DNA of 64,000 nt. Origin: Actinomadura craniellae (GTDB lineage Bacteria; Actinomycetota; Actinomycetes; Streptosporangiales; Streptosporangiaceae). Positions 42,894-62,788 of the stretch are shown here, piece by piece. Made by a program: the position numbers and the translations under genes. The notes below the pieces were generated by a model. It did no database searches. It had not been told where the DNA came from and worked only from the letters and a program-made list of their open reading frames with translations. The stretch lies in NCBI RefSeq assembly GCF_003289645.1, contig NZ_QLYX01000014.1:124001-188000 (forward strand). The letters are read 5' to 3'. Each line of letters opens with the position of its first letter. Within the stretch, counting starts at the first letter, position 1.

Positions 42894-42899
42894 GGCCGC

Positions 42900-43724: not shown

Positions 43725-43782
43725 ACCGCAGACCCCTCGGCGGCGGACGAAATCGCAGAGTCACCCCGAGTTAGCGAAAATT

Positions 43783-43828
43783 GAGCAAGCATGTTCCCCC
43801 GGTTCGTAGGCGAATGCGGGGTTACCAT
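43783..43828 (+). promoter_or_regulatory. Leaderless promoter with upstream dyad, methyltransferase copy 2
   Basis: Dyad GAGCA-N4-TGTTC at 43783-43796, then TACCAT at 43823-43828, six bases before GTG 43835. Spacing identical to copy 1. Confidence 0.65.
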
Positions 43829-43834
43829 GACCGC

Positions 43835-44659
43835 GTGACTTCGCCCGAGCCTCCTGATATGCCGAGGTTCGATCCCACGGTGCCCTCCCAGGCCCGGGTG
43901 TTCGACAGACTCACCGGCGGCAAGGACAACTTCGCGCCCGACCGCGGCCTCGCCGAGATCTTCCTGGAGATCGCGCCGGAGCTGCCGGTGCTGTTCCGCG
44001 AGCGCTGCAGGTTCTTCGACCGCGCCGCCCGGTTCCTGGTCGACGCCGGGGTCCGGCAGTTCATCGACGTCGGGTGCGGCATGCCCGCCCCCCACAACCT
44101 GCACCACGTGCTCCGGCCGATCGCTCAGGACGCGAAGGTCGTCTACGTCGACCACGACCCCGTCGTGGTGTCGCACGGGCGCGCACTCGCCGAAGTCCAC
44201 GACACCGTCCGCTACGTCCACGCCGACGCCCGCGACCCCGACCGGATGCTCGACCACCCCGACCTCACCCAGGTCATCGACCTGAACGACCCCGTCGCGA
44301 TCCTGCTGGATTCGCTGCTCTCCCCCATCACCGAGGACGACGTCGTCACCACGATGGTCCGGCGGATCATCGAGCGCCTGCCGTCCGGCTGCGGATACCT
44401 GCTGATCACCGACTCGGTCAGCGACATCCGGCCCGAGGTCACCGCCGCGCTCGCCCGGCTCTACCAGGAGCAGGGGGTGGTCAAGGGCGAGCACAAGGAG
44501 AACACCCGTTCCTGGAAGGAACTGGAGCACTTCATGGACGGCCTCCAGTTGGTGCCGCCCGGGATGGTCCCCCTCCCCGGCTGGCGGCCCCACCTCGGCG
44601 AGCCCACCGTCGACACCGCGACCTTCTGGCTCGTCGGCGGGATCGGCCGGAAACCCTGA
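43835..44659 (+). CDS. DUF574 SAM-dependent methyltransferase, array copy 2
   Basis: 274 residues. Same architecture as copy 1 with GGKDNF, IDVGCGMPA and VDHDPVVV. It differs mainly around residues 35-60 (LAEIFLEIAPELPVLFRERCRF) and in the C-terminal region (KENTRSWKELEHF). It has its own leaderless promoter, so the four genes need not form one operon. 111 bases separate it from copy 1. Confidence 0.85.
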   Translation: MTSPEPPDMPRFDPTVPSQARVFDRLTGGKDNFAPDRGLAEIFLEIAPELPVLFRERCRFFDRAARFLVDAGVRQFIDVGCGMPAPHNLHHVLRPIAQDAKVVYVDHDPVVVSHGRALAEVHDTVRYVHADARDPDRMLDHPDLTQVIDLNDPVAILLDSLLSPITEDDVVTTMVRRIIERLPSGCGYLLITDSVSDIRPEVTAALARLYQEQGVVKGEHKENTRSWKELEHFMDGLQLVPPGMVPLPGWRPHLGEPTVDTATFWLVGGIGRKP

Positions 44660-44723
44660 ACCGCCGGGCGCCGCCCCTCGACGACGCACGAAACCACGGG
44701 ATCGACCCGAGGTGGCAGGCGCT

Positions 44724-44769
44724 GAACAAATCCGTTCGCCCGAGTTGTAGGCGAATGCGGGGCTACCAT
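44724..44769 (+). promoter_or_regulatory. Leaderless promoter with upstream dyad, methyltransferase copy 3
   Basis: Dyad GAACA-N4-CGTTC at 44724-44737, then TACCAT at 44764-44769, six bases before GTG 44776. Confidence 0.65.
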
Positions 44770-44775
44770 GGCCGC

Positions 44776-45600
44776 GTGACTTCACCGGGGCCCGCCGAAC
44801 TGCCAGGGTTCGACCCCACGGTGCCCTCCGAGGCCCGGGTGACCGACAGCTTCACCGGCGGCAAGGACAACTTCGCGGCCGATCGCGAGCTCGCCAAGCT
44901 CGCCCTGGAGATCGCACCGGAACTGCCGATGGTGTTCCAGGAGTCCCGCAAGTTCGCCGACCGTGCCGCCCGGTTCCTGGTCGACGCCGGAGTCCGGCAG
45001 TTCATCGACGTCGGGTGCGGCATGCCCACCCCCGACAGCCTGCACCACGTGCTCCGACCGGTCGCCCCCGACGCGAAGGTCGCCTACGTCGACCACGACC
45101 CCGTCGTGGTGGCACACGGACGGGCGCTCATCGACATCACCGGTCCCGTCCGCTTCGTCCAGGCCGACGCCCGCGACCCCGACCGGATGCTCGACCACCC
45201 CGACCTCACCCGGATCATCGACCTGAACGCCCCTGTCGCGATCCTGCTCCAGTCGCTGCTCACCGTCATCCCCGAGGACGACGTCGCCACCGCGGTGGTC
45301 CGGCGGTTCATCGACCGCCTGCCGTCCGGCCACGGATACCTGCTGGTCACCCACGCGGTCCGCGACATCCGGCCCGAGGTCACCGCCGAGCTCGCCCAGC
45401 TCTACCAGGAGCAGGGGACGGTCAAGGGCGAGCACAAGGAGAACGTCCGTTCCTGGAAGGAGGTGGAGCATTTCCTGGACGGCCTCCGGCTGGTGCCGCC
45501 CGGGGTGGTCCCCCTCCCCGACTGGCGGCCCGACCCCGGCGAGCCCACCATCGACACCTCCGCCTTCTGGGTCGTCGGCGGGATCGGCCAGAAGCCCTGA
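44776..45600 (+). CDS. DUF574 SAM-dependent methyltransferase, array copy 3
   Basis: 274 residues, closest to copy 4: both open VTSPGPAELP and share long identical stretches through the SAM-binding half (GVRQFIDVGCGMPTPDSLHH). Motifs GGKDNF, IDVGCGMPT and VDHDPVVV are intact, so it should bind SAM. The acceptor-binding differences lie at residues 35-65 and after 170. Confidence 0.85.
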   Translation: MTSPGPAELPGFDPTVPSEARVTDSFTGGKDNFAADRELAKLALEIAPELPMVFQESRKFADRAARFLVDAGVRQFIDVGCGMPTPDSLHHVLRPVAPDAKVAYVDHDPVVVAHGRALIDITGPVRFVQADARDPDRMLDHPDLTRIIDLNAPVAILLQSLLTVIPEDDVATAVVRRFIDRLPSGHGYLLVTHAVRDIRPEVTAELAQLYQEQGTVKGEHKENVRSWKEVEHFLDGLRLVPPGVVPLPDWRPDPGEPTIDTSAFWVVGGIGQKP

Positions 45601-45635
45601 ACCGCGGAATCGCCGTCGAACGATAATGCGGCACC

Positions 45636-45681
45636 GAACAAACCTGTTCGCCCGAGTCGTAGGTGAATGCGGGGCTACCAT
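45636..45681 (+). promoter_or_regulatory. Leaderless promoter with upstream dyad, methyltransferase copy 4
   Basis: Dyad GAACA-N4-TGTTC at 45636-45649 (perfect arms), then TACCAT at 45676-45681, six bases before GTG 45688. Confidence 0.65.
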
Positions 45682-45687
45682 GGCCGC

Positions 45688-46509
45688 GTGACTTCACCGG
45701 GGCCCGCCGAACTGCCGAGGTTCGACCCCACGATGCCCTCCCACGCCCGGGTGGTCGATCGCTTCGCCGGTGGCAAGGACAACTTCGCGCCGGATCGCGA
45801 GCTCGCCCGGCTCGCCCTGGAGATCGCACCGGAGATTCCGCTGCTGTTCCAGGAGGCCCGCAAGTTCGCCGACCGTGCCGCCCGGTTCCTGGTCGAGGCT
45901 GGAGTCCGGCAGTTCATCGACGTCGGGTGCGGCATGCCCACCCCCGACAGCCTGCACCACGTGCTCCGACCGGTCGCCCCCGACGCGAAGGTCGCCTACG
46001 TCGACCACGACCCCGTCGTGGTGGCACACGGACGGGCGTGCGTCGACATCGACGGCCCCGTCCGCTTCGTCCAGGCCGACGCCCGCGACCCCGACCGGAT
46101 GCTCGACCACCCCGACCTCACCCGGATCATCGACCTGGACGCCCCGGTCGCGATCCTGCTCCAGTCACTGCTCGCCGACTTCGCCGATGACGACCTCGCC
46201 ACCGCGATGGTCCGGCGGATCGTCGAGCGCCTGCCGTCCGGCCACGGATACCTGCTGATCACCCACGCGATCTGCGACATCCGGCCCGAGGCCACCGCCG
46301 CGCTCGCCCGGCTCTACGCGGAGCGCGGGATGGTCGACGGTCACCGTGAGAGGGCCCGCTCCTGGAAGGAGGTGGAGCACTTCATGGACGGCCTCCGGCC
46401 CGTGCCGCCCGGCGTGGTCCCCCTCCCCGACTGGCGGCCCGACCCCGGCGAGCCCACCATCGACACCTCCGCCTTCTGGGTCGTCGGCGGGATCGGCCGG
46501 AAACCCTGA
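45688..46509 (+). CDS. DUF574 SAM-dependent methyltransferase, array copy 4
   Basis: 273 residues, one shorter than its siblings because of a change near residue 215 (YAERGMVDGHRERARSW). All SAM motifs are intact (GGKDNF, IDVGCGMPT, VDHDPVVV). It ends ten bases before the convergent ppx gene with no clear terminator. High similarity to copy 3 indicates a recent duplication. Confidence 0.85.
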   Translation: MTSPGPAELPRFDPTMPSHARVVDRFAGGKDNFAPDRELARLALEIAPEIPLLFQEARKFADRAARFLVEAGVRQFIDVGCGMPTPDSLHHVLRPVAPDAKVAYVDHDPVVVAHGRACVDIDGPVRFVQADARDPDRMLDHPDLTRIIDLDAPVAILLQSLLADFADDDLATAMVRRIVERLPSGHGYLLITHAICDIRPEATAALARLYAERGMVDGHRERARSWKEVEHFMDGLRPVPPGVVPLPDWRPDPGEPTIDTSAFWVVGGIGRKP

Positions 46510-49802: not shown

Positions 49803-50121
49803 TCTTTCCGCGGCGGTTCCGGGGACATGATTCCATCACCATCCCGTGGAAACGGTCATTTCTCCAAGGTGACCGTGCGCGACCGGCCGGCCACCGGGAC
49901 CGCTCCTTGTGGACACCATGAGCAGCGATCCCGTCACCGGTTTCTGGCACGCCTTTTCGTGGACGCCATAGGGTTGTTATCTCCAACTAGGTGTTGTTAT
50001 CGTCACCATAGCCATCGAGTTGGATATTCCAACCCACTAGGAATGTCCAACCCCCGGAACGCCGTCATCCCTTTTCGGAATGTGTCGTGGGCAGCCGAAA
50101 ACCGAGCGATCGGAAGTGAAA
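49803..50121. promoter_or_regulatory. Divergent control region between SNF2 gene and P450
   Basis: About 320 bases without a gene, AT-richer than the flanks. It includes the direct repeat GTTGTTATC at 49973-49981 and 49993-50001, TCCAAC half-sites at 49982-49987 and 50046-50051, the palindrome at 50019-50033 and a -10-like TAGGAA at 50038-50043. These features point to a regulated promoter for the P450 gene. Confidence 0.6.
50019..50033 (+). promoter_or_regulatory. Operator palindrome GTTGGA-N3-TCCAAC upstream of the P450
   Basis: GTTGGATATTCCAAC is an inverted repeat lying just before the -10-like box. The same dyad with a different spacer occurs at 62804-62818, upstream of the MFS transporter at the far end of the cluster. 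Confidence 0.68.
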
Positions 50122-51354
50122 ATGAGTCAGATCGGGACTCTGGCCGACCCCCTGGACATATTGGGGCGTCTGCTGGCCTTCGACGGGAAACAGAACCCCT
50201 ATCCGCTGTACGAGGAGATGCGCGCGCACGGCCCGCTGGCCGACCTGGACGGCGCCCACTTCTTCGTCACCGGTTACACCGAATGCGCGCGGGCGCTGCG
50301 CGAACCGGACCTGCTGTCCACCGACGCCGCCGTCCAGGACCTCAGGCTGCCCGGCTGGCGCGAGCACTCCTCCTGGCGCTGGCTCACCAAGAACATGCTG
50401 TTCTCCAACGACCCCGACCACGAGCGGCTGCGCCGCTTCTTCGGCACCGCGTTCTCCGCCCGCAGCGTCGCCGGGCTGCGGCCCATGGTGGAACGGCTCG
50501 CCGACGACGCCGTGGAGCACGTCGCCGGGCTCGGCGCGGACGGCGCGGTCGTCGACCTGGTCCCGGAATTCTCCTACCGCTTCGCGACGTCCGTCATCGG
50601 GGAACTGCTCGGCATCCCGCCGGAGCGGCAGCCGGGGCTGCGCGGGATCATCGGCGACATCACCACCGCCCTCGACCCGATCGGCGACCTCCGCCAGCTC
50701 GAACCGGGCGACGCCGCCATGGACCGGCTAGCCGAGTACTTCTACGAGCTCGTCGCCCGCCGCCGGGCGGACCCCGGGCCGGACCTGACCAGCTCCTTCA
50801 TCCGCGCCCGCGACGAGAGCGACGACATCACCGACGAGGATCTCGTCGCCAACCTGATGCTGCTGCTCGTCGCCGCCGCCGAGGCACCGCAGGACCTGCT
50901 GAGCAACACGGTGCGGCTGGCCATCGAACACCCCGAGCACGCGGCCCGGCTCCGGGCGGACCAGGGGACGGCCCCGGGCTTCGTCGACGAGACCCTGCGC
51001 TACGACCCGGCGGTGCAGGCGCTGAACCGGGTGGCGGCGCGGGACCTGGAGTTCTTCGGCGCCACCGTGCGCGCCGGTGTCCCGGTGACGCTGCTCATCG
51101 CCGCGGGCAACCGCGACCCGCGCCGGTTCGCCGACCCCGGCCGCTTCGACCCGGCCCGGACCGACAACCAGCCGCTCACGCTGAGCGCCGGGGCGCACTA
51201 CTGCCTGGGCGCCGCGCTGGCCCGGATGTCCGCCGAGACCGTCGTGCCGAAGCTGCTGCGCCGGCTGCCCGGGCTGGCGCTCGCCGAGCCGCCCACCTTC
51301 CGCGACCAGCTCGTCCAGCGCGGCCACGACCGGCTGCCGGTCACCACGGGTTGA
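50122..51354 (+). CDS. Cytochrome P450, putative polyyne-tailoring oxygenase
   Basis: Heme monooxygenase of 410 residues. The heme loop is LSAGAHYCLG with ligand Cys361; the usual Phe is Leu. The ExxR motif is ETLRY. The I-helix reads VAAAEAP (Glu254, Ala255), so the conserved Thr of the A/G-G-x-D/E-T motif is replaced by Ala. P450s lacking that Thr often rely on substrate-assisted proton delivery. GGAAGTGAA precedes ATG 50122. It is followed after 15 bases by a degenerate alpha/beta hydrolase, and it lies next to a polyyne core, where P450s usually hydroxylate the chain. Confidence 0.9.
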   Translation: MSQIGTLADPLDILGRLLAFDGKQNPYPLYEEMRAHGPLADLDGAHFFVTGYTECARALREPDLLSTDAAVQDLRLPGWREHSSWRWLTKNMLFSNDPDHERLRRFFGTAFSARSVAGLRPMVERLADDAVEHVAGLGADGAVVDLVPEFSYRFATSVIGELLGIPPERQPGLRGIIGDITTALDPIGDLRQLEPGDAAMDRLAEYFYELVARRRADPGPDLTSSFIRARDESDDITDEDLVANLMLLLVAAAEAPQDLLSNTVRLAIEHPEHAARLRADQGTAPGFVDETLRYDPAVQALNRVAARDLEFFGATVRAGVPVTLLIAAGNRDPRRFADPGRFDPARTDNQPLTLSAGAHYCLGAALARMSAETVVPKLLRRLPGLALAEPPTFRDQLVQRGHDRLPVTTG

Positions 51355-51369
51355 AAGGAGAAAGCCCCT

Positions 51370-52266
51370 ATGTCCGACTCCACCGATGAGCTCAGCGACG
51401 CCCGGCTCGCAGCCTCCCTGGACGGCGACTTCCACAGCCGGTACGCCGAGGTCAACGGGATCCGGCTGCACTACGTGATCGGCGGGGCGGGCGAGCCGCT
51501 GGTCCTGCTGCCCGGCTGGCCCGAGACCTGGTGGGAGTACCGCAAGGTCATGCCGGCCCTGGCGACCCGGTACCGGGTGATCGTCGTCGACATCCGCGGG
51601 ATGGGCGGCTCGGACAAGCCCGACTCGGGCTTCGAGAAGAAGTCGATGGCCGGGGACGTCCGCGAGCTGGTCCGCCGGCTCGGGTACGAGAAGGTCGACA
51701 TCGCCGGGCACGGCATCGGCGCCATGATCGCGTTCAGCTACGCCGCCGTCCACCCGGAGGCGACCCGGCGGCTCGCGGTGCTGAACACCACGCACATCGA
51801 CGAGAGCTACTACGAGTTCCCCATGCTGCCGCGCCCCGGCGACCCGCCCCCGCACCGCTGGTGGCTGGCCTTCCAGCAGGTCCAGGAGCTGCCCGTGCAG
51901 CTCCTCACCGGGCGGGCCAGGCTCATCATCGACTACATGTTCGGCCTCAGCCTGGTGGACCCGGACGCGATCACCCCCTTCGACCGGGACGTCTACGCCC
52001 GGGCGTACTCCCCCGCCGAGGCGATCCGGGCCAGCCAGGGCTGGTTCCAGGCCTACCAGCAGGACATCGAGGACTTCCTCGGCTACGACAAGATCTCCGT
52101 GCCGATGCTGGGGCTGGCCTACGGCCCCTTCTTCGACTACATGAAGCAGGTGCTGCCCGGCCAGGGCACCGACGTGCGGATGGCCGAGATCGAGGGCACC
52201 CGCAACTACCTGGTCGAGGAGCAACCCGAGGCCGTCGTCCGGGAGTTCTTCGCGTTCTTCACCTGA
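51370..52266 (+). CDS. Catalytically degenerate alpha/beta-hydrolase-fold protein (epoxide hydrolase relative)
   Basis: 298 residues with overall epoxide-hydrolase/haloalkane-dehalogenase-like fold (VVDIRGMGGSDKP, RLGYEKVDIAGHGIGAM). Three catalytic positions are changed. The HGxP oxyanion motif is PGWP (48-51). The nucleophile elbow G-H-D/S-x-G reads GHGIG with Gly115 in place of Asp/Ser. The C-terminal His position is Asn279 (GTRNYLVEEQPE instead of a G-H-x(3)-EE-x-PE pattern). The gene is otherwise intact, so a non-hydrolytic role is likely. It is translated with the P450. Confidence 0.82.
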   Translation: MSDSTDELSDARLAASLDGDFHSRYAEVNGIRLHYVIGGAGEPLVLLPGWPETWWEYRKVMPALATRYRVIVVDIRGMGGSDKPDSGFEKKSMAGDVRELVRRLGYEKVDIAGHGIGAMIAFSYAAVHPEATRRLAVLNTTHIDESYYEFPMLPRPGDPPPHRWWLAFQQVQELPVQLLTGRARLIIDYMFGLSLVDPDAITPFDRDVYARAYSPAEAIRASQGWFQAYQQDIEDFLGYDKISVPMLGLAYGPFFDYMKQVLPGQGTDVRMAEIEGTRNYLVEEQPEAVVREFFAFFT

Positions 52267-52275
52267 GCGAACGGA

Positions 52276-52305
52276 GCAGGGGCCGCCCCGCGGGGCGGCC
52301 CCTGC
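52276..52305. terminator. Perfect 30-bp palindrome, bidirectional terminator
   Basis: A GC-only inverted repeat without mismatches lies between the convergent hydrolase-fold and rubredoxin genes, followed by CCTTTA on the plus strand. It separates the two arms of the polyyne cluster. Confidence 0.8.
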
Positions 52306-52313
52306 CCTTTACC

Positions 52314-52502
52314 TCACAGCGGCGACATCACGAAGTCCTCCTTGCTGACGCCGCACTCGGGGCAGGCCCAGTCGTCGGGGATCTCGTCCCAGGAGGTGCC
52401 GGGCGCGATGCCCTCCTCCGGCAGCCCCTGGTCCTCGTAGTAGACGAAACCGCAGACCAGGCACATCCAGGCCCGTCCCTTGACGGCGGTCTCGGCGGTC
52501 AT
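52314..52502 (-). CDS. Rubredoxin
   Basis: Iron-sulfur electron carrier of 62 residues with Cys14, Cys17, Cys47 and Cys50 in CxxCG and CPxCG loops. Rubredoxins supply electrons to membrane-bound di-iron oxygenases and desaturases. In polyyne clusters a rubredoxin gene follows the desaturases and hydrolase, as here. Its start overlaps the hydrolase stop by four bases, so it is the last gene of the operon. Confidence 0.93.
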   Translation of the reverse strand: MTAETAVKGRAWMCLVCGFVYYEDQGLPEEGIAPGTSWDEIPDDWACPECGVSKEDFVMSPL

Positions 52503-53359
52503 CGCGCCTTCTCCTCGTCCTTGATGCCGTGCCCGCTGACGAACGCCGAGATCAGCTCCTTGACCTCGGGCGCCATCAGGATCCCGATATGGCCGGTGCC
52601 CGGCGCCCGCTCCAGCCGCACGTCGCGCAGCCCGGCCGCCACCGCCTCCGCCTCGGCGAACGGCACCACGTCGTCGCCCGGGTCGTGGACGGCCAGCACC
52701 GGGCAGTCGAGGTCACCGCCCAGCCCCACCACGTCCCAGTGGCTCACCGGCACCCCGTTACGCCGGTGCAGCTCGCGGTAGATCCGCCGCACGGTCGGCC
52801 GGGCCAGCCGCAGCTCGCCGCGCGACCAGCGTTCGAGCACCCCGGTGAGAGTGCAGGCCGGCGCGACCAGGGCGAGGCAGTCGATCGGCGCGGCGGGGCG
52901 GGCGGCGACCGCCCCGACGGACGCGATCGAACCGAGCGAGTGCGCCACGATCACCCGGACGTCGCCGAGCGTGTCGAGGACCGCGCCCACCGCCCGGGTG
53001 AACTGGGTCATCGTCGCCTGGGAACCCTCGGCCACCCCGTGCCCGGGAGCGTCGAAGGCGGCCACCCGGTAGCCGAGCGCGCGCAGCGGCGGGATCAGGC
53101 TGTGCATGCTGCTGCTGTCGGTGCCCCAGCCGTGCACCAGCAGGGCGGTCGGCCCGCCCTCGCCCCACAGGTACCCGCCGCGCACGTCCGGGTCGCCCTC
53201 GACCGGGAACCCGCGCGAGCCCAGCGGGGGCAGGTCGTCGGGGTACACGCCGAGGGCGCGGGTGGTGCTGAAGGCGTCGGTCGCGCGCCGCCCGGCGAAT
53301 CCGGGCGCCAGGCGGCCGAGCGCGGCGTAGCCGGACCGCCGCAGCGCGACCGGCGTCAC
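52499..53359 (-). CDS. Alpha/beta hydrolase, putative polyyne chain-releasing thioesterase
   Basis: 286 residues with an intact hydrolase triad: nucleophile Ser141 in AHSLGS, an Asp in HDPGDDVVP and a His in GTGHIGI. HGWGTDSSS forms the oxyanion loop. In polyyne clusters a hydrolase in this position releases the finished acyl chain from the acyl carrier protein. GTG 53359 overlaps the desaturase stop by four bases, matching tight coupling across the operon. Confidence 0.85.
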   Translation of the reverse strand: MTPVALRRSGYAALGRLAPGFAGRRATDAFSTTRALGVYPDDLPPLGSRGFPVEGDPDVRGGYLWGEGGPTALLVHGWGTDSSSMHSLIPPLRALGYRVAAFDAPGHGVAEGSQATMTQFTRAVGAVLDTLGDVRVIVAHSLGSIASVGAVAARPAAPIDCLALVAPACTLTGVLERWSRGELRLARPTVRRIYRELHRRNGVPVSHWDVVGLGGDLDCPVLAVHDPGDDVVPFAEAEAVAAGLRDVRLERAPGTGHIGILMAPEVKELISAFVSGHGIKDEEKAR

Positions 53360-54459
53360 GGAGCGGTCCCCACGGCCTGCCGTTCCCGCTGCTCGGGGGC
53401 GACCTGCTGCCGGCCGAAGTCGGCGTAGAAGCCGGACTCGGTGTCGTAGAAGTGCAGCCGGCGGACGATCCGCCACAGGTGCCGCGCCTTCAGGTCCTGC
53501 TCCCGCACCATGCCCGGGTAGGCGGCCTTCAGCGCCTCCTGGGCCTTGGGCAGGTTGTAGAACGGGACGGGCGGCGCGACGTGGTGCGCGGTGTGCACCG
53601 AGATGTTGTGGGTGAGGAACAGCAGCCACCGGGGGTAGCGGTAGTCGGTGGTCAGCAGCAGCCGGCCGGCGTTCTTCGTCCAGTGCTCGGACGTCAGGTA
53701 GGGGACGTCGGAGGCGCTGTGGTGCATCAGCGTGGTGGCGCTGAACCACGCGTGGATGGCGAACCAGGGTGCCACGAAGTACAGCAGCAGCCCGGTGAAC
53801 CCGGTGAAGTAGATCAGCGGCGGGAAGTACAGCGCGGACGCCACCAGCACGAACACGATCGAGCGCCGCACGTCGCGCCGCATCTCCCGCTTCGGGAAGA
53901 ACCCCGGCCGGAAACCCGACACCCGCCAGTAGTTGATCGTGCCCGCCCAGAACGCGACGGTCCGGGTACCGGCATAGATCACCTTGTCCCACCACGGCAT
54001 GCGGTCGTACAGCGCCGCCGGGATCGGTCGCCAGTCGGTGTCCAGCTCCAGATTGTTGGTGTGGGTGTGGTGCAGGTTGTGCACGTGCCGCCAGGCATGG
54101 AACGGATAGATCAGCGGCAGCAGTGACACGTGCCCGACGAGGGAGTTGAACTTCCGCGACCGCGAGAACGAGCCGTGCCCGCAGTCGTGCGCGATGCAGT
54201 GCAGGCCCCAGCCGCCCAGGCCCGCCACCACCCACAGCGGCAGGTACAGCGCCCAGTGCGGGGCGGCGGCGATGCCGGCCAGCGCCCCCAGGTACAGGGC
54301 CCAGCTCACGGCGAAACCGAGCAGCCCGCGCCACACCCGCGGCGTGAAGTACTCGCGGGGGATCGCCTGCGCCAGCCGCTCCCCCTTGATCTCCTCGGAC
54401 TTGCGCATGAACTCGGCGAAATTCTCGTCTGGAGCGGCGGGAAAACGGTAGGTCGCCAT
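53356..54459 (-). CDS. Membrane fatty acid desaturase/acetylenase (DesA-like)
   Basis: 367-residue di-iron membrane enzyme. His boxes HDCGH (91-95), HNLHH (127-131) and HTAHH (289-293) are complete, with four transmembrane segments between them. It belongs to the delta-12/omega-3 type rather than the delta-9 acyl-CoA type. In polyyne clusters the desaturase after the acyl carrier protein belongs to this class. It overlaps the hydrolase gene by four bases. Confidence 0.9.
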   Translation of the reverse strand: MATYRFPAAPDENFAEFMRKSEEIKGERLAQAIPREYFTPRVWRGLLGFAVSWALYLGALAGIAAAPHWALYLPLWVVAGLGGWGLHCIAHDCGHGSFSRSRKFNSLVGHVSLLPLIYPFHAWRHVHNLHHTHTNNLELDTDWRPIPAALYDRMPWWDKVIYAGTRTVAFWAGTINYWRVSGFRPGFFPKREMRRDVRRSIVFVLVASALYFPPLIYFTGFTGLLLYFVAPWFAIHAWFSATTLMHHSASDVPYLTSEHWTKNAGRLLLTTDYRYPRWLLFLTHNISVHTAHHVAPPVPFYNLPKAQEALKAAYPGMVREQDLKARHLWRIVRRLHFYDTESGFYADFGRQQVAPEQRERQAVGTAP

Positions 54460-54474
54460 GGTTTCCGTCCTCGG

Positions 54475-54768
54475 TTATGAATGGCCGGCGAGACCGAGTT
54501 CTTTGGCCAGGTATCCGCTCAGGTCGTCCACCGTCTGGTACTCGTACAGCAGCCCGGGGGAAAGGCGCCGCTCCACGATTTTCTCCAGCGATCCGGAGAC
54601 CTGGACGGCGACCCGGGAATCGAGGCCGTACGCCTCGAACGTCTTCTTGGTGTCGATGTTCTCGGGAGATTCGCCGACCCGTTCCGCCAGGTGCTCGATC
54701 AGCCAGCGGCGGATCGACTCCGCGGTGCGCGGCCCCTCGAATTCGACTTTCTTCTTGCGTCTGAACAT
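54475..54768 (-). CDS. Stand-alone acyl carrier protein
   Basis: 97 residues with phosphopantetheine attachment Ser51 in YGLDSRVAV. The Arg after Ser and the basic N-terminus (MFRRKKK) resemble PKS-type carriers loaded by fatty acyl-AMP ligases, as in JamC-like proteins. It is expected to carry the fatty acyl chain through successive desaturation and acetylenation. It lies between two desaturase genes. Confidence 0.9.
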   Translation of the reverse strand: MFRRKKKVEFEGPRTAESIRRWLIEHLAERVGESPENIDTKKTFEAYGLDSRVAVQVSGSLEKIVERRLSPGLLYEYQTVDDLSGYLAKELGLAGHS

Positions 54769-54788
54769 CGGGTTCCCGTTCTCGTCGG

Positions 54789-55757
54789 TCAGTTGGTTCC
54801 GGGTTCGGCCGCGGGGCGTTTGCGGGCCCGGCGGGCGGCGATGGCGGCGGCGTCCGGCTGGCGCAGGTTCCACACCACCCGCAGCCGGCCGAGCCCGGTC
54901 AGCACCCAGCCGCTGAGGTCGGGCTCCCACGGGCGGACGGCGTGCCGGTAGGAGCCGGGGAAGGCGTGGTGGTTGTTCTGCAGGCCCTCGCCGAAAGTGA
55001 AGATCGCCACCGGCCAGTTGTTGGCGCTGCGGTCGCCGTTGTCGAAGGGCCGGCCGCCGATCATGTGGCTGAGCGAGCCGACGCACCAAGCCGCCTGGTT
55101 GGCCAGGAACATCCGGGCCAGCCCGCCGAACAGGAAGCCGGTGAGCAGCGCCATGGGCGTCCGCTCCACCGCGAAGCCGATCAGCGCGGGCAGCGCCAGG
55201 CCGAGCAGCAGCCACAGCTGGTAGGTGCGGTGGTAGAAGAACAGCCGGCGGTCGCGCAGCACGTCCGGCGCCCAGAAGCGCCAGCTCGAACTCTCGTCGC
55301 TGAGCATCCACGGCATGTGCGCCCACCACAGGCCGCGCAGCCTGGCGCCCAGGCCGTCGCCGGAGAGGTTAGGCGAGTGCGGGTCGCCCTCCCGGTCGCT
55401 GAAGCGGTGGTGCCGGCGGTGCGTGGTGACCCAGTACATGATCGGGCCCTGGCCGCCCATCGAGCCGCTGATCATGAGGGCGCCCTCGAAGAACCGCGAG
55501 GTGCGGAACGACTTGTGCGCGAGATAGCGGTGGAAGCCGATGGTGATGCCGGCCATGTGGACGAAGTACATCCCCGCGAAGAGCCACAGGTCGGTCGCGG
55601 TGTACCAGCCGTTCCAGAGGAAGATCGCGGCCGCGACGGTGCCCAGACCGGGCAGCGTCATGGTCGCGAACGCGGTGATCCATTTGATCCGGGCGCTCGC
55701 CGGGTCGAGCTTGACGATCGATCCTTCCGGCGGCGCGGAAATCGTTGCCGTGGACAC
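54789..55757 (-). CDS. Acyl desaturase/acetylenase (delta-9 type) with altered third His box
   Basis: 322-residue membrane desaturase. His boxes HRYLAH (76-81) and HRRHH (113-117) are standard. The third, usually HNxHH, reads QNNHH (260-264), so its first His is Gln. Such variants exist in bacterial desaturases, but the change could affect iron binding or reaction outcome (double versus triple bond). GGAGG lies nine bases before GTG 55757. Co-transcribed with the second delta-9-type gene. Confidence 0.88.
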   Translation of the reverse strand: MSTATISAPPEGSIVKLDPASARIKWITAFATMTLPGLGTVAAAIFLWNGWYTATDLWLFAGMYFVHMAGITIGFHRYLAHKSFRTSRFFEGALMISGSMGGQGPIMYWVTTHRRHHRFSDREGDPHSPNLSGDGLGARLRGLWWAHMPWMLSDESSSWRFWAPDVLRDRRLFFYHRTYQLWLLLGLALPALIGFAVERTPMALLTGFLFGGLARMFLANQAAWCVGSLSHMIGGRPFDNGDRSANNWPVAIFTFGEGLQNNHHAFPGSYRHAVRPWEPDLSGWVLTGLGRLRVVWNLRQPDAAAIAARRARKRPAAEPGTN

Positions 55758-55772
55758 GGTGGACTGGCCTCC

Positions 55773-56669
55773 CTACTTCTTCGCTCGGCGATAGCGCACG
55801 TCGGACGCCAGCCCGACAAGGTCGAGGGTGCGGATGAACATTCCGGTGACGTCGATCTGCCAGAAGGAGTGCCGGTTGGTGGCGAGCGCGGGCTGCGAGT
55901 GGTGGTTGTTGTGCCAGGAGCCGCCCACGGACAGCGGCGCGAGCGGGGCGACGTTGCGGCTGTTGTCGCGGGTCCGGTAGGGCCGGTTGCCCAGCGTGTG
56001 GCCGATCGAGTTGACGCTCCAGGTGACCTGGTCGAGCAGGAAGATCCGGGCCAGCCCGCCCCACAGGAACCCGCCGGCCGCACCTTCGGCACCGCCCAGC
56101 AGCCCGCCGATCGCGGCGGGGATCGCCAGGCCCAGCAGGACCCAGCCGAAGTAGTACTGGTTGACCTTCATGACCAGGCGGTCCCGGACCAGGTCCGACA
56201 CGTGCCTGGTCCACCCGGCGCGGCGGATGGTGAACAGCCAGCCGGCGTGCCCGTGCCAGAGGCCGCGCAGCCTGCCCCGCAGCCCGGGGCCGAGCGGGCG
56301 GGGCGAGTGCGGGTCGCCGTCCCGGTCGGTGCAGGCGTGGTGCTGGCGGTGGACGGCCACCCAGAACAGGATCGGTCCCTGCGCCGCCATGCTCCCGGTG
56401 ACCCCCAGGAACGCGGTCACCGCCGGGCCCGCGGTGAACGAGCGGTGCGAGAAGAAGCGGTGCAGCCCGCCCTCCACCCCGAGCGCCGTCACCAGGTACA
56501 TGCCGGCGAGCAGGGCCAGGTCGCGGAGGGTGAACCCGTAGCGGAGGGAGAACGCCAGCGCGGCCACGAAGCCGAGCGCGGGCAGTCCCACGGTGACGTA
56601 GGCCATCCGGCGGGCCAGGACGTCGGTGTCGCCGCCGTGTACCGGTGCGGCCTCAAGGGGTCGGGTCAT
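55773..56669 (-). CDS. Acyl desaturase/acetylenase (delta-9 type)
   Basis: 298-residue membrane di-iron desaturase with complete boxes HRFFSH (70-75), HRQHH (107-111) and HNNHH (253-257), and four to five transmembrane segments. It resembles JamB/CayB-type enzymes that convert a single bond in an acyl-ACP to a double or triple bond. It lies directly after the fatty acyl-AMP ligase gene (12 bases), as in known polyyne clusters. Confidence 0.9.
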   Translation of the reverse strand: MTRPLEAAPVHGGDTDVLARRMAYVTVGLPALGFVAALAFSLRYGFTLRDLALLAGMYLVTALGVEGGLHRFFSHRSFTAGPAVTAFLGVTGSMAAQGPILFWVAVHRQHHACTDRDGDPHSPRPLGPGLRGRLRGLWHGHAGWLFTIRRAGWTRHVSDLVRDRLVMKVNQYYFGWVLLGLAIPAAIGGLLGGAEGAAGGFLWGGLARIFLLDQVTWSVNSIGHTLGNRPYRTRDNSRNVAPLAPLSVGGSWHNNHHSQPALATNRHSFWQIDVTGMFIRTLDLVGLASDVRYRRAKK

Positions 56670-56681
56670 CGTGGCCTCCGG

Positions 56682-58475
56682 TCACGGCGTGTTCTCGTCA
56701 GTGGCCGGGGCGAACCGTTTGAGCGTTCCCTGGACGAACGCCTGCCGGGTGGCGTCCCGGCGCACCTTCCCGCTGGTGGTGGTGAAGATCGTGCCGACCG
56801 GGCCGAGGTGGACCGCGGCCGGCCGGACGCCGTGGTCGGCGGTCACCGCGGCCAGCACGAGGTCGCGGGCCGCGGCCACCTCGGCCGCGGTGCGCCGCCT
56901 GATCCCGTGGAACTCGGCGACGACGACCAGCGACTCGGTGGTGGCGTCGCGCAGCGAGAACGCCGCCGCCTGGCGCAGTTCGGCGCCCGCCGCCAGCACC
57001 GACCGCTCGATGTCCTGCGGGTAGAGGTTGCGGCCGGCGATGACGATCAGGTCCTTGATCCGGCCGGTGACGAACAGTTCCCCGTCCCGCAGGAAACCCA
57101 GGTCCCCGGTGCGCAGGTAGGTCGGGGGGCGCTCGCCCGCGACGGGTGCGGAGCAGGCGCCGGTGGAGAGCAGGGCGGTGAACGTCTCGGCGCTCGGCTC
57201 CGGCCGGCCGAGGTAGCCGGCGGCGACGTTCGGGCCGCCCACCCAGATCTCGCCCACCCCGTCGGGCGGCACCCGGCGCCGCGCGTCCGGGTCGGCGATG
57301 GCGACCTCGTGTCCCGCGGCCACCGCACCGCAGCTCACGATCTCGACGGCGTCCTCGCCGCCGGGCTCGGCGTCCCGGACGACCCCCTTCTCCAGCGCCG
57401 GCCGGTCCAGCCACATGGTCCGGACCGGGGCGCCGGCGGCCTTGCCGGACACGAACAGCGTCGCCTCGGCGAGGCCGTAGCAGGGGACGAGCGCCGCCGG
57501 GTCGTACCCGCGGGGGGCGAACCGCTCGGCGAAGCGCTCGACGGTGGCGGGGAACACCGGTTCGGCGCCGCAGTACACCTGCCGCAGCGAGCCCAGGTCC
57601 AGGGTCGCCAGTTCCTCGTCGGTGACGGTGTCGACGCACAGGTCGAACGCGAAGTTGGGACCGACCGAGATGGTGACCCGGTTGTCGGTGATCGCTCTGA
57701 GCCAGCGGTACGGCTGCTGGACGAAGTCCACCGGCGACATCAGCACCAGCGGCCAGCCGCTGTGCAGGGCGAGCATGATCGTGCCCATCAGGCCCATGTC
57801 GTGGTAGGGCGGTAGCCACGAGCAGCCGACGCGGTCCGCCTCGACGCCCATGTTGTGTTCCAGGACATGGCAGTTGCTGACCAGGTTGGCGTGGGTGAGC
57901 ACGATGCCCTTGGGGTCGCCGGTGGAGCCCGAGGTGTACTGCAGCAGAGCCGGGTCCGCCGGTTCCGGGAGGATGCCGGGTGCCGTGCCCGCCCGCCGGA
58001 AGAACTCCTCGTCGAGCGACAGCCAGTCCGGGGCCCGCATCCCGGGCGGTGGTTCGGCGGCCGGTGCCGCGCCGGTGCCCGCGAAGCGCGGGTGCGCGAT
58101 GACCGCGTCCGGCCGGCAGTCCTCGATGATCGAGGCGAAGCGGGCCTTGGCCCGGCGGCCGAAGGGCGGGAAAGACGGTACGGCGGTGGCGCCCGCCAGG
58201 AAGATGCCGAACAGCGCCGCGACGTAATACGGGCCGGGGTCGAGGGCGAGGACCACCCGCCGTCCGGTGAGCCCGCGATCTCTTAATTCGGCACCGACGG
58301 TGGCGGCGTGTTCGGCCACGTCGTGGTAGGTCCAGTCCACGATTTCGGTGGCCGAACCGTCAGGTGAAAAACCTTCGAGGAAACGGAATGCGAGCCGTCG
58401 TGGCTGCCGTGCCCGCTCATGCAGAATCTCGGGCAACGAGGTCGTGGGCCATTTGCTGTGGTGTTCCACGGACAC
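56682..58475 (-). CDS. Fatty acyl-AMP ligase (FAAL), putative polyyne starter activation
   Basis: ANL-superfamily adenylating enzyme of 597 residues. The core motif TSGSTGDPKG lies at 181-190, with YRTGDLGFL-type and NLYPQDIE motifs further on and a complete C-terminal domain. FAALs differ from acyl-CoA ligases by an insertion that blocks CoA; the long N-terminal region and WLPPYHDMGL pattern fit FAAL. It should activate a fatty acid and load it on the adjacent acyl carrier protein. GTG 58475 begins the family N-terminus. Confidence 0.92.
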   Translation of the reverse strand: MSVEHHSKWPTTSLPEILHERARQPRRLAFRFLEGFSPDGSATEIVDWTYHDVAEHAATVGAELRDRGLTGRRVVLALDPGPYYVAALFGIFLAGATAVPSFPPFGRRAKARFASIIEDCRPDAVIAHPRFAGTGAAPAAEPPPGMRAPDWLSLDEEFFRRAGTAPGILPEPADPALLQYTSGSTGDPKGIVLTHANLVSNCHVLEHNMGVEADRVGCSWLPPYHDMGLMGTIMLALHSGWPLVLMSPVDFVQQPYRWLRAITDNRVTISVGPNFAFDLCVDTVTDEELATLDLGSLRQVYCGAEPVFPATVERFAERFAPRGYDPAALVPCYGLAEATLFVSGKAAGAPVRTMWLDRPALEKGVVRDAEPGGEDAVEIVSCGAVAAGHEVAIADPDARRRVPPDGVGEIWVGGPNVAAGYLGRPEPSAETFTALLSTGACSAPVAGERPPTYLRTGDLGFLRDGELFVTGRIKDLIVIAGRNLYPQDIERSVLAAGAELRQAAAFSLRDATTESLVVVAEFHGIRRRTAAEVAAARDLVLAAVTADHGVRPAAVHLGPVGTIFTTTSGKVRRDATRQAFVQGTLKRFAPATDENTP

Positions 58476-58541
58476 TACACAGGTCCCCTTTTTGAAATTG
58501 TTAACCTTATGCTTCAGGTGTACTTCGAGCCTATTTCGGCC

Positions 58542-59339
58542 TCACGCTGAACGGGCCACCCGCAACTGCCGGGCGGATCCCAGGTGCGCGCCGTCCGGCC
58601 CCCAGGCGTCGATCTCCTCCTCGTTCCAGCCGTCCGGCCCGGCGGCCCGGGTGCGAGCCCGCAGCAGCACCCAGGGTGATGCCGCCGTCGCCAGTGCGTC
58701 GCCCGGCCGCACGGTGAACTCGACGGTCGGGACCAGCACCAGATCCGAGAGGACCGCCGCGTAGGCGGGCGCCAGCGCGTCCATCAGCAGGATGAACCTG
58801 AGCAGGTCCGGTGGCCGGTCGTCCTCGACCAGGCGGATCCAGGCGGTCAGTTCCGGCTCCTTGCCGCCTGCGTAGGGGCGGTTCGGCCCGACCGGCCTGA
58901 TCTGCATGTACACGGAGATGGGCACGAACTCCGGGGGGATGGCGAAGAGCTCGCACTCCTCCGGCGGCGGGGCCGCCGGGGGTTCGGGCGCGAAGACCGG
59001 CCAGCCCCCGGACGGGGCGGTGCCGTAGATCGCGGTCGCCTCGGCGTGCACCCCCTTCTCCGTCGTGGCCTGGGCGGACAGGCCGGTGATCGTGCGCCCG
59101 GTGCGGGCGACGGCCGCCTCGACGGCGAACGCGCCGCCGACCGGGCGATGGAACCTGCCGGTGACGCTGTGCAGCCGGGCGCCGGGCGCCCGCTCCGACA
59201 TCGCCGCGACCATCAGCGCGAGGAGCAGGCCGCCGTGCAGCCCGCCGAAGCCCCCGAGGTGCGGCCCCGGATCAAGGGGACCGTCGATCGGAGTGTCCAA
59301 AAGGGCGGCCGGCGAAACCGACCCTTCGACTGCCGTCAC
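58542..59339 (-). CDS. Acyl-CoA thioesterase-like protein (4HBT_3 double-hotdog)
   Basis: 265 residues resembling PF13622-type acyl-CoA thioesterases: FGGLHGGLLLALMVAAM in the first hotdog and GDALATAASPWVLLRARTRAA in the second. It might provide fatty acid for the ligase or edit mis-loaded chains; no catalytic Asp/Glu can be assigned with certainty. GTG 59339 was chosen with AGGGGG about eleven bases upstream. It stands 66 bases before the FAAL gene, in the same direction. Confidence 0.72.
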   Translation of the reverse strand: MTAVEGSVSPAALLDTPIDGPLDPGPHLGGFGGLHGGLLLALMVAAMSERAPGARLHSVTGRFHRPVGGAFAVEAAVARTGRTITGLSAQATTEKGVHAEATAIYGTAPSGGWPVFAPEPPAAPPPEECELFAIPPEFVPISVYMQIRPVGPNRPYAGGKEPELTAWIRLVEDDRPPDLLRFILLMDALAPAYAAVLSDLVLVPTVEFTVRPGDALATAASPWVLLRARTRAAGPDGWNEEEIDAWGPDGAHLGSARQLRVARSA

Positions 59340-59375
59340 GAGACACTTACCCCCTGCCGGACGATCTCGTAAATA

Positions 59376-59391
59376 CCACTCGGCCGAGTGG
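59376..59391. promoter_or_regulatory. Perfect 16-bp palindrome upstream of the thioesterase-FAAL operon
   Basis: CCACTCGGCCGAGTGG lies 37 bases before the thioesterase start, followed at once by a GTTGGA half-site (59392-59397). A regulator-binding role is plausible. Confidence 0.5.
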
Positions 59392-59429
59392 GTTGGAACA
59401 TGCGACTGACTATAAGGAGAGCAATTCAG

Positions 59430-59474
59430 ATGCGCAAGACCGCTAGGTGTCGAGCAACGGAAAAGCGGGTGTGA
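59430..59474 (+). CDS. Possible 14-residue peptide frame
   Basis: ATG 59430 follows AAGGAGAG by eight bases and encodes MRKTARCRATEKRV before TGA. A TATAAG -10-like box lies just upstream. It may be a leader or chance occurrence. No homology evidence. Confidence 0.2.
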   Translation: MRKTARCRATEKRV

Positions 59475-59596
59475 TTGCGGTTCCCCAGACACAACCCGGC
59501 AGTTCGCTGTATCGCTGAACAAGCAGGATCATGAATCGTTGTGACACCAGCCACAGGAAATACGAAACGGCATCTTCGCGTCGCGTCCCGTGACTT

Positions 59597-60046
59597 TCAG
59601 TCGGCGGGCAGGGCGCCCCGGCCGGTGGGCGAGTGCAGGCCCTTGCGCGCGGGCTCGCCGCAGTGCCGGCAGATGAGCGCCGGCTCCAGGACCTCGTCGC
59701 AGGAGTGCCGCAGCCGCAGCGGCGGGTCGTCGGGGTTGAGGTGCCGGTCACCCCACTTCATCAGGGTCAGCAGCACGTCGCACAACTCCCAGCCCGCGGC
59801 GGTCAGGTGGTACTCGTACCGCAGCGCGTGGTGGCTGTAGCGCTCGCGCCGGATGATGCCCGCGGTCTCCAGCTTCCGCAGCCGGTTGGTGAGGATGTCA
59901 CGGGACGCCCCGATGTTGCGGACCAGCCGTTCGAACCGGCGGACCCCGTGACTCAGCTCGCGGACGACGAGCAGCGTCCACCGCTCGCCCACCAGGTCGA
60001 GCACATCGGCGATGGAACACTCCCGGGGCGCCACGGTGTCAGGCAT
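59597..60046 (-). CDS. HxlR-family transcriptional regulator
   Basis: 149 residues with a winged-helix HxlR core (CSIADVLDLVGERWTLLVVREL, RRFERLVRNIGASRDILTNRL). Cys10 and the C-terminal CRHCG could sense thiol-reactive compounds, which polyynes are. ATG 60046 has a leaderless -10 box (TAGGAT) six bases upstream and no ribosome binding site. It lies inside the polyyne cluster and is the best candidate for its regulator. Confidence 0.88.
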   Translation of the reverse strand: MPDTVAPRECSIADVLDLVGERWTLLVVRELSHGVRRFERLVRNIGASRDILTNRLRKLETAGIIRRERYSHHALRYEYHLTAAGWELCDVLLTLMKWGDRHLNPDDPPLRLRHSCDEVLEPALICRHCGEPARKGLHSPTGRGALPAD

Positions 60047-60052
60047 GGGCCC

Positions 60053-60080
60053 ATCCTAGGCAAGTTAGTTGTGATTTCAA
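60053..60080 (-). promoter_or_regulatory. Leaderless promoter of the HxlR gene
   Basis: On the minus strand TTGAAA (60075-60080) is followed after 16 bases by TAGGAT (60053-60058), which ends six bases before the ATG. Confidence 0.6.
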
Positions 60081-60159: not shown

Positions 60160-61323
60160 TCAGAGGCGCTCGATGATGGTGGCGTTGGCCAGACCACCCG
60201 CCTCGCACATGGTCTGCAGCCCGTACCGGGCGCCGCGGTCCTCCAGGTTGTGCAGCAGGGTGGTCATGAGGCGGGCCCCGCTGCCGCCCAGCGGGTGGCC
60301 GATGGAGATCGCGCCACCCCGCACGTTGACCCTGTCGAGATCGGCGCCGGTCTCCCGCTGCCAGGCCAGCACCACCGAGGCGAACGCCTCGTTGACCTCG
60401 AACAGGTCGATGTCGCCGAGGCTCAGCCCGCCCTTGGCCAGCACCTTCTGGGTGGCGGGCACGACGGCGGTGAGCATCAGCAGCGGGTCGTCCCCGGCCA
60501 CCGCGAACGCGTGGAACCTGGCCCGCGGGCGCAGTCCCAGCCGTGCGGCGGTGTCGATGCCCATGATCAGCAGCGCCGCGGCGCCGTCGTTGATCGGCGA
60601 GGAGTTGCCCGCCGTGACATGCCAGCCGATCTCGGGGAACCGCTCCGCCACCCGCGGGTCGTGGAAGGCCGGCCGGAGCCCCGCCAGGGCCTCGGCCGAG
60701 GTGCCGGCGCGCACGGTCTCGTCCCGCTGCCCGGCCCAGGCGACCTCCCGGTCGAACTCGCCGCGGTCCCAGGCGGTGGCGGCGCGCCGGTGCGACTCCA
60801 GGGCGAACGCGTCCTGTTCCTCCCGGTCGATCTTCCAGCGGGCCGCGATCAGCTCGGCGCTGATCCCCTGGCCGACCAGCCCCTCCGGGTAGCGCGCGGC
60901 CAGCAGCGACCCGAACGGGTCGCTGCCCGGCAGCACGCTCGACCCCATCGGCACCCGCGACATCGACTCCACGCCGCAGGCGATCGCCACGTCGTAGGCC
61001 CCGCTGATCACGCCCTGCGCCGCGATGTGCACGGCCTGCTGGGACGAGCCGCACTGCCGGTCGACGGTCATGGCCGGGACGCTCTCGGGGAATCCCGCGG
61101 CCAGCACCGCGTTGCGGGTGATGTTGATCGCCTGCTCCCCCACCTGGGTCACGCAGCCGCCGATGACGTCGTCCACCAGCGCGGGGTCGATCCCGGTCCG
61201 GTCCACCAGTGCGCGGAGCGTCCGGGCCAGCAGGTCCACGGGGTGCTCCTCGTGCAGCGCCCCCGTCGGCTTGCCCTTGCCGACCGGTGTGCGCACCGCT
61301 TCAACGATCACTGCTTCCCGCAT
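60160..61323 (-). CDS. Acetyl-CoA C-acyltransferase (thiolase), possible polyyne self-resistance copy
   Basis: Thiolase of 387 residues with nucleophile Cys91 in DRQCGSSQQAV, His343 in GHPLGGSG and the second active-site Cys373 in TMCEAGG. A biosynthetic or degradative role is possible. Its position between the polyyne core and the exporter is notable, because bacterial polyynes have been reported to inactivate acetyl-CoA acetyltransferases and one Massilia cluster encodes a protective thiolase. AAGGAGG precedes ATG 61323. It follows the MFS gene by 40 bases, probably in one operon. Confidence 0.88.
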   Translation of the reverse strand: MREAVIVEAVRTPVGKGKPTGALHEEHPVDLLARTLRALVDRTGIDPALVDDVIGGCVTQVGEQAINITRNAVLAAGFPESVPAMTVDRQCGSSQQAVHIAAQGVISGAYDVAIACGVESMSRVPMGSSVLPGSDPFGSLLAARYPEGLVGQGISAELIAARWKIDREEQDAFALESHRRAATAWDRGEFDREVAWAGQRDETVRAGTSAEALAGLRPAFHDPRVAERFPEIGWHVTAGNSSPINDGAAALLIMGIDTAARLGLRPRARFHAFAVAGDDPLLMLTAVVPATQKVLAKGGLSLGDIDLFEVNEAFASVVLAWQRETGADLDRVNVRGGAISIGHPLGGSGARLMTTLLHNLEDRGARYGLQTMCEAGGLANATIIERL

Positions 61324-61363
61324 GGCGTCCTCCTTGAATGGGAACTTGATGGGAAAAGGCAAC

Positions 61364-62788
61364 TCACTGGTCGGACCGTTCGGGCTGCGGCGCCCGTCCG
61401 GCGCGGCCGACGAAGACACAGAGCGCGGCGGCGGCGACGGCGGCCGCGAGGGTGGCCAGCCAGCCGGCGTCAAAGGCGGACGCCAGCTCGTCCGAGCCGC
61501 CCATGGCGACGACGAGCAGCGCGACACCGAGCACCATGCCGATCTGCCGGGCCATGGTGACCACGCCCGAGCCGGTCGAGAAGCTCTGCGGCGGCACCGC
61601 AGAGACGGCCGCGCCGATCAGCGTGGGGAGGGTCAGCCCCACCCCGACGCCGGTGAGCAGCATGCCGGGCAGCATCCCCGTGACGTAGCCGCCGCCGGGC
61701 TCCATCAGCGCGTACCACCAGGCGATGCCGGCGGCGAACGTCAGGCTGCCGACAAAGGCGATCGGCCCCGCGCCCCACCGCCGGATGTAGGAGCCGGAGG
61801 TCATGGCCAGCGCGGGCACCATGAGCGGGCCGGGCGCGATCGCCAGCCCGGTCTGCAGCGGGGACCAGTCCCAGACCTGCTGGCACCAGAGCGCGACCGA
61901 CAGCAGCATCCCGGCGAACGCCACCGAGAACAGGATGTTGGCGAGCGTCGCCGGGGCGAAGGCCGGCAGCCGCAGCATCGACAGCGGCAGCACCGGAGCC
62001 TCGTGCCGCGCCGACCGCAGGACGAACCCGGCCAGCAGCACCAGGGCGACCGCCAGCGAGCCCAGCGTCCCGGCCGACAGCCAACCCCAGTCCTCGCTGC
62101 GGACCAGCCCGAGGGCCAGCGCGGCGATCGCGACGGTGAGCATGGCCGCGCCGAACAGGTCCGGCCGGGGCAGGTCCCGGGCCGGCACCCGGGGCAGCAC
62201 CCGCCAGCCGACCACCAGCGCGGCGATCCCGATCGGCACGTTGACCAGGAAGGCCCAGTGCCAGTCGATCCCGGTGAGCAGCCCGCCGAACACCGGGCCG
62301 AGCGCGACGGCCAGGCCGCTGATCGCCGTCCAGGCGCGCACCATGGACATCCGGCGCTCGGGCGGGGACGCGGCCAGCAGCAGGCCCAACGACGAGGGGA
62401 GCAGCAGGGCCGCGCCGAACGCCTGCACGACCCGGGCCGCGACCAGCGACCAGACGTCCGGTGCGAGCGCGCACGCCGCGGAGGCCGCCGTGAAGACCAC
62501 GATGCCGGACAGGTACACGCCGCGCGCGCCGACCCGGTCGGCGAAGTTGCCCGCGGGCACCAGCAGCGCGGCGAACACCACCGCGTAGGCGTTGAGCACC
62601 CATGACAGCGACGCGAGCGAGGCGTCGGGGAAGTACCGGCCGATCTCGGGCAGGGCCACGTTGACGATGAAGACGTCGAGGTTGGACATCGACACCCCGG
62701 CGGCGACGACAGCGAAGACGACGCCGAGCCGTGGCCGGGCCGCGGTGGACCCGGTCTCGGCGGTGGCCTGGGCCTGGGGACTGCTCAC
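61364..62788 (-). CDS. MFS transporter, DHA2 type (14-helix drug antiporter)
   Basis: 474 residues with about 14 transmembrane helices. Family marks are motif A GNFADRVGARGVYL, motif C-like AISGLAVALGPVFGGLLT and VNVPIG, typical of EmrB/QacA exporters. GTG 62788 has GGAGGGA upstream. As the first gene of an operon with the thiolase and under the cluster dyad, it probably exports the cluster product. Confidence 0.9.
   Translation of the reverse strand: MSSPQAQATAETGSTAARPRLGVVFAVVAAGVSMSNLDVFIVNVALPEIGRYFPDASLASLSWVLNAYAVVFAALLVPAGNFADRVGARGVYLSGIVVFTAASAACALAPDVWSLVAARVVQAFGAALLLPSSLGLLLAASPPERRMSMVRAWTAISGLAVALGPVFGGLLTGIDWHWAFLVNVPIGIAALVVGWRVLPRVPARDLPRPDLFGAAMLTVAIAALALGLVRSEDWGWLSAGTLGSLAVALVLLAGFVLRSARHEAPVLPLSMLRLPAFAPATLANILFSVAFAGMLLSVALWCQQVWDWSPLQTGLAIAPGPLMVPALAMTSGSYIRRWGAGPIAFVGSLTFAAGIAWWYALMEPGGGYVTGMLPGMLLTGVGVGLTLPTLIGAAVSAVPPQSFSTGSGVVTMARQIGMVLGVALLVVAMGGSDELASAFDAGWLATLAAAVAAAALCVFVGRAGRAPQPERSDQ

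Follow-up and report, generated by a model that had tools for sequence, protein, structure and literature searches.

A hydrolase-fold protein with replaced catalytic residues, conserved with the polyyne pathway in actinobacteria

In the window (the whole 64,000-nucleotide stretch of Actinomadura craniellae DNA analyzed here), an alpha/beta-hydrolase-fold protein with replaced catalytic residues was recognized, and it very probably has a new, non-hydrolytic job in the polyyne pathway. The same form is found in over twenty soil bacteria, all of them with polyyne biosynthesis genes. Judged from its residues, the protein is most unlikely to be an epoxide hydrolase by the mechanism of its family. 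It is reasonably probable that it is a homologue of the epoxide hydrolase Alp1U in which hydrolysis was lost a single time, at the root of a clade serving polyyne biosynthesis in actinobacteria, and that it has since been retained as a partner serving the pathway's cytochrome P450 in a role other than hydrolysis.

The open reading frame matches the Pfam profile Abhydrolase_1 (E-value 2.9e-23), and its ATG is preceded by a good ribosome-binding site, AGGAGAA. It starts 15 bases after the stop codon of the P450 gene on the same strand. The predicted structure, based on a 39-sequence alignment, has a mean pLDDT of 92.9, which agrees with an earlier sequence-only reading that the remaining fold is intact; both the fold and the Pfam profile place the protein in the alpha/beta-hydrolase superfamily. 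Its closest relative with a solved structure is Alp1U (E-value 1e-100). The model is similar to Alp1U with a TM-score of 0.95 and an rmsd of 1.1 Å in Foldseek, and with a Z-score of 48 over 293 residues in VIA-align. Alp1U is a demonstrated epoxide hydrolase of kinamycin biosynthesis, in which Asp137 and His300 are catalytic (PMC5970136). The two proteins are ~50% identical over the full length and share the PGWP loop, the cap and the WW motif (PDB 6KXR, 6KXH and 7CLZ for Alp1U). Unlike in Alp1U, the nucleophile Asp, the acid Asp, the His, Tyr247 and Trp187 are all replaced, and Arg278 is gained. Alp1U originates from an angucycline cluster, while the window protein is encoded in a polyyne cluster.

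Table 1. Features of the window: the hydrolase-fold gene, the residues discussed, and the surrounding polyyne cluster. Fractions compare the 23 GHG-type proteins with the 30 triad-type relatives.
Feature	Position	Strand	Remarks
Cytochrome P450	50080..51354	+	Pfam p450; homologues point to a start at ~50122
Alp1U-like alpha/beta-hydrolase-fold gene, catalytic residues replaced	51370..52266	+	298 aa; Pfam Abhydrolase_1; best solved structure Alp1U
Pro48 of PGWP	51511..51513	+	Family feature, present in active Alp1U; no loss
Gly115, codon GGC	51712..51714	+	Column of nucleophile Asp (Alp1U D137); 23/23 G vs 30/30 D
Asn139, codon AAC	51784..51786	+	Charge-relay acid column, nucleophile +24; 23/23 N vs 29 D + 1 E
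Leu166	51865..51867	+	Alp1U W187, oxirane oxyanion residue; 23/23 L vs mostly F/W
Phe226	52045..52047	+	Alp1U Y247, epoxide-activating cap Tyr; 23/23 F vs 30/30 Y
Arg278-Asn279	52201..52206	+	Gly/Val-His of catalytic base; Asn279 codon AAC, 52204-52206; 23/23 RN vs 30/30 H, mostly G before
Rubredoxin	52314..52502	-	Pfam Rubredoxin
Alpha/beta-hydrolase thioesterase	52499..53359	-	Ser elbow AHSLGS, C-terminal GHI
Fatty-acid desaturase	53356..54459	-	Polyyne marker in genome searches
Acyl carrier protein (ACP)	54475..54768	-	Pfam PP-binding
Fatty-acid desaturase	54789..55757	-	
Fatty-acid desaturase	55773..56669	-	
Fatty acyl-AMP ligase (FAAL)	56682..58475	-	
4HBT-type thioesterase	58542..59522	-	ORF start uncertain
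HxlR-type regulator	59597..60046	-	Conserved beside related clusters
Thiolase (acetyl-CoA acetyltransferase)	60160..61323	-	Candidate MasL-like self-resistance gene
DHA2/MFS efflux transporter	61364..62788	-	Conserved beside related clusters

The features of an Alp1U-type enzyme, namely the Asp nucleophile, the catalytic His, the charge-relay acid, and the Tyr/Trp activating the epoxide oxygen, are absent from the window protein. Gly115 in GHGIG at the nucleophile elbow and Asn279 in the column of the catalytic His had been pointed out in the sequence-only reading, and both were confirmed by the alignment (Table 1). Three further replacements had been overlooked: D139N, Y226F (Y247 in Alp1U) and L166 (W187 in Alp1U). 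Tyr247 and Trp187 are positions mutated in ligand-bound Alp1U structures. In this family, the acid is found 24 residues past the nucleophile; the titles of structure entries indicate D129 and E153 for Cif, and Alp1U has Asp at this position. The Alp1U paper assigns Asp278 as the acid, from a homology model (PMC5970136). The column of Asp278 is Tyr257 in 23/23 clade members and nucleophile +24 is Asn139; thus, the acid is absent under either assignment. Because G115, N139, N279 and F226 are present in every clade member, the mechanism of Asp nucleophile and His-activated water cannot run as it does in the family.

PGWP had been read as a lost oxyanion loop, and this part did not hold. The column of Pro48 includes 21 Gly, 7 Pro and only 2 His among the 30 triad-type relatives, and PGWP is present in the active Alp1U. 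This change is therefore separate from the disarming.

Homologues were gathered by the protein alone, through a contig search and from 299 genomes of the window's family, and further homologues were obtained via the polyyne desaturase in 393 genomes of a single genus, identified as Streptomyces because it overlaps with named records. The 53 distinct sequences, including Alp1U, fall into 23 GHG-type and 30 GHD-type (triad) proteins, with no intermediates. The residues G115, N139, L166, F226, R278 and N279 are invariant in the GHG-type proteins, and so are the clade-specific polar residues E52, R163, Y229, Y251 and R278. Only four of 281 positions are fixed, or nearly so, differently between the two groups: D115G, D139N, Y226F and H279N. 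The catalytic set was thus changed and almost no other conserved site, and the probability of all four catalytic positions being among the lost conserved ones by chance is 3e-6. The GHG type is monophyletic, forming one branch with 100/100 support, and is spread over Streptomyces and Actinomadura; the disarming appears to have arisen once, in the clade ancestor. None of the 253 pairwise dN/dS values in the clade reaches 0.64, indicating purifying selection, and codons 115 and 139 vary synonymously while their residues are constant. The identical state in 23 distinct homologues excludes chance or sequencing error. G115 and N279 occur together in all of them. A full triad in an equivalent cluster, named beforehand as the case that would speak against the sequence-only reading, was sought among the clusters examined, and none was found.

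Comparable proteins are known among engineered and natural members of the fold. Cif, Cif-like epoxide hydrolases and fluoroacetate dehalogenase have the same fold and motif order (Z-score about 39) and are 25-37% identical to the window protein, but their wild types retain the triad. According to the titles of structure entries, crystal structures exist for the engineered equivalents D129S, E153Q and Y239F of Cif, and likewise for D110N, H280N and Y219F of fluoroacetate dehalogenase, and several of the mutant structures contain a bound ligand or a trapped adduct. FlsH resembles the window protein in being an Alp1U relative from a natural-product cluster that works without epoxide opening (PMC5970136, PMC9391479). 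It differs in being a deacylase with the catalytic residues kept; S92, E115 and H241 were mutated in the FlsH study. The HOD/QDO dioxygenases perform non-hydrolytic chemistry on the hydrolase fold, for which the nucleophile is dispensable while the His-Asp dyad is required (PMC10548524). Both columns of this dyad are Asn in the window protein, and an HOD-like oxygenase is therefore ruled out.

The occurrence of the GHG form follows the polyyne pathway. Searching by sequence alone located 19 GHG loci. Nine of these are in a polyyne cluster, where they immediately follow the P450 gene, and ten are elsewhere, in verticillate Streptomyces and in one record labelled Streptosporangium nondiastaticum. 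A polyyne desaturase is encoded elsewhere in all ten genomes with an out-of-cluster copy, which rejects a pathway-free role for these apparent orphans, and the nine polyyne regions fetched from them contain a complete cluster with the P450. The gene is thus tied to the polyyne pathway, being retained in polyyne genomes even when located elsewhere in the chromosome. The out-of-cluster copies (L001-L008, L018 and L022) are kept at no fewer than two different chromosomal sites.

Of the 299 genomes of the window's family, 36 encode a homologue; the polyyne desaturase was found in four, exactly the four with the GHG form, and in none of the remaining 32. The desaturase was also sought in three genomes with the GHD form from outside the family (L019-L021), and none was found. 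Among genomes located through this gene alone, each counted once, the pathway is present in 21/21 genomes with the GHG form vs 0/35 with only other relatives, the GHD residue state being checked in the members whose loci were fetched. Fisher's exact p is 3e-16, computed on 22 GHG-form genomes since one had been entered twice, and it is only indicative as the genomes are related. In a phylum-wide sample of 396 genomes, the polyyne desaturase was found only in the window's own genome. It is very likely that the protein works in the polyyne pathway.

The converse is looser. Thirteen Streptomyces genomes were positive for the desaturase; all 13 encode a related P450, and nine encode the hydrolase-fold gene. 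In the four genomes without it, the P450 is divergent in two (47-48% identity), 65% identical in one, and 79% identical in one, where it is at a separate locus. A replacement gene was sought in these four clusters, and no consistent substitute was found. The Streptomyces with the 79% P450 has a split pathway (L128, L129), in which the desaturases are far from the P450 and an HxlR-type gene, with no hydrolase-fold gene. Streptomyces griseofuscus DSM 40191 carries two copies of the polyyne cluster (L016, L017), inverted and near both chromosome ends.

Polyynes are reactive triple-bond antifungals. A complete polyyne cluster occupies positions 50080-62788 of the window and includes a MasL-like thiolase gene. 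It unites the genes for FAAL, three desaturases, ACP, thioesterase and rubredoxin, a core set of seven by which bacterial polyyne clusters are recognized in the literature (PMC8406139). The clusters for caryoynencin, cepacin, collimonin, ergoyne, protegencin and massilin have the same seven-gene cassette, but the cassette common to the known bacterial clusters lacks such a pseudo-epoxide-hydrolase (PMC8406139). The alpha/beta-hydrolase thioesterase of the window retains its Ser elbow, so hydrolysis is provided for elsewhere in the cluster. The thiolase MasL is both a polyyne target and a self-resistance gene (PMC9098870), and by analogy, the window thiolase may have a MasL-like self-resistance role. 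The window thiolase is 75-82% identical to the thiolases of related clusters. A KAS III-like gene, possibly another resistance or priming gene, adjoins the polyyne clusters of verticillate Streptomyces (L079-L087, L130); a close relative of the window thiolase was sought in three of the verticillate genomes carrying it and was not found. Upstream from the cluster, at 42879-46509 (+), an S-adenosyl methyltransferase gene (Methyltransf_19) appears to be present as four copies in tandem, starting near 42879, 43781, 44760 and 45667; Pfam confirmed two of them.

In every in-cluster copy, the P450 gene is immediately upstream of the hydrolase-fold gene on the same strand. The coupling of the protein to a P450 product, as the sequence-only reading proposed, is inferred from this gene order. 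The I helix of the cluster P450s has EAP instead of the usual ETT/DTT (23/23), with the acid kept and Thr changed to Ala. The T252A mutant of P450cam still epoxidises olefins; by this analogy, an epoxide is possible as the product of the cluster P450. At the same site, QSP is observed in two divergent P450s from clusters without the hydrolase-fold gene. As the gene is missing from a genome with a 79%-identical P450, it is not required for every P450 product.

In the favored explanation, the intact core and cap, together with the conserved pocket tryptophans W50, W164, W165 and W225, would bind the polyyne oxidized by the P450, in an epoxide or hydroxyl form. With the carboxylate of the Asp, the catalytic base and the epoxide-activating Tyr all lost, water could no longer attack. 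The reactive intermediate would then be held or passed on, or a different nucleophile would open it; bicarbonate/CO2, or a hydroxyl or carboxylate of the substrate itself, could serve. Two arginines specific to the clade, Arg278 and Arg163, perhaps assist in this. Against this explanation, the pocket residues T140, T141, H142, D144, E52, Y229 and Y251 may be candidates for a new nucleophile or base. Also against a partner of the P450 is the distance between the two genes in ten genomes, and against a universal partner role, the lack of the gene in 4/13 sampled Streptomyces polyyne genomes. There is good support for the broader claim of the sequence-only reading, that the pathway retains the protein for a function other than hydrolysis: the replacement in 23/23 homologues, purifying selection, occurrence only in polyyne genomes, and P450 adjacency of the in-cluster copies.

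It is less probable, yet worth consideration, that the protein is non-catalytic and sequesters an unstable polyyne or acyl form, or carries it to the exporter or off host targets. Some hydrolase-fold pseudoenzymes became receptors. The complete loss of catalytic groups with retention of the pocket tryptophans is compatible with binding or protection, as is the retention of the gene in genomes where it no longer adjoins the P450, and other likely self-protection genes in the cluster suggest a host-toxic product (PMC9098870). However, the strict P450 adjacency of the in-cluster copies favors a post-oxidation step over export, the thiolase and the MFS pump may already provide protection, and the gene is missing from some polyyne genomes.

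A more specific form of epoxide opening is rather unlikely: the disarmed protein would hold the P450 epoxide while bicarbonate/CO2, placed near Arg278 in the space vacated by the Asp carboxylate, opens it to a cyclic carbonate. Sch 31828 and L-660,631 are cyclic carbonates, and it is the cyclic carbonate of Sch 31828 that leads to this reading. Sch 31828, from Microbispora, was the only actinobacterial polyyne named in a 2021 survey, with no cluster then assigned (PMC8406139), and the Sch 31828 paper is cited in a passage of another article that deals with cyclic carbonates (PMC5789884). If true, the protein would be an enzyme that converts an epoxide to a carbonate.

It is improbable that the active site has moved within the pocket, for example to Asp144, His142, Glu52, Tyr229/Tyr251 or Arg278, making the protein a new enzyme of hydrolytic or lyase type. 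The invariant clade-specific polar residues E52, R163, Y229, Y251 and R278 would fit such a site, but H142 and D144 are also present in triad-type relatives and hence are not new, the elbow residue is not replaced by Ser, Cys or Asp, and the His-Asp dyad of the hydrolase-fold dioxygenases is gone as well (PMC10548524). A functionless recent relic or an assembly error is hardly credible: each of the four catalytic replacements (G115, N139, F226 and N279) is one base from the usual triad-type codon (GAC at Gly115 and CAC at Asn279 being the commonest), as had been noted for two of the losses, but the same state in 23 distinct proteins with synonymous changes at the Gly115 and Asn139 codons, together with a single origin at the clade base, argues against it, and residue invariance with purifying selection rules out a recent pseudogene.

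The GHG-type proteins represent a clean natural case of a hydrolase in which the switch affected exactly the four catalytic positions together, sparing nearly every other conserved site, and was then frozen. They have a clear link to a pathway, and they make the reuse of an epoxide-hydrolase fold directly testable. The gene also marks a group of actinobacterial polyyne clusters whose products are not tied to genes in the literature covered. A non-hydrolytic epoxide or carbonate step, if the protein performs one, would add to the known enzyme activities and be of practical interest.
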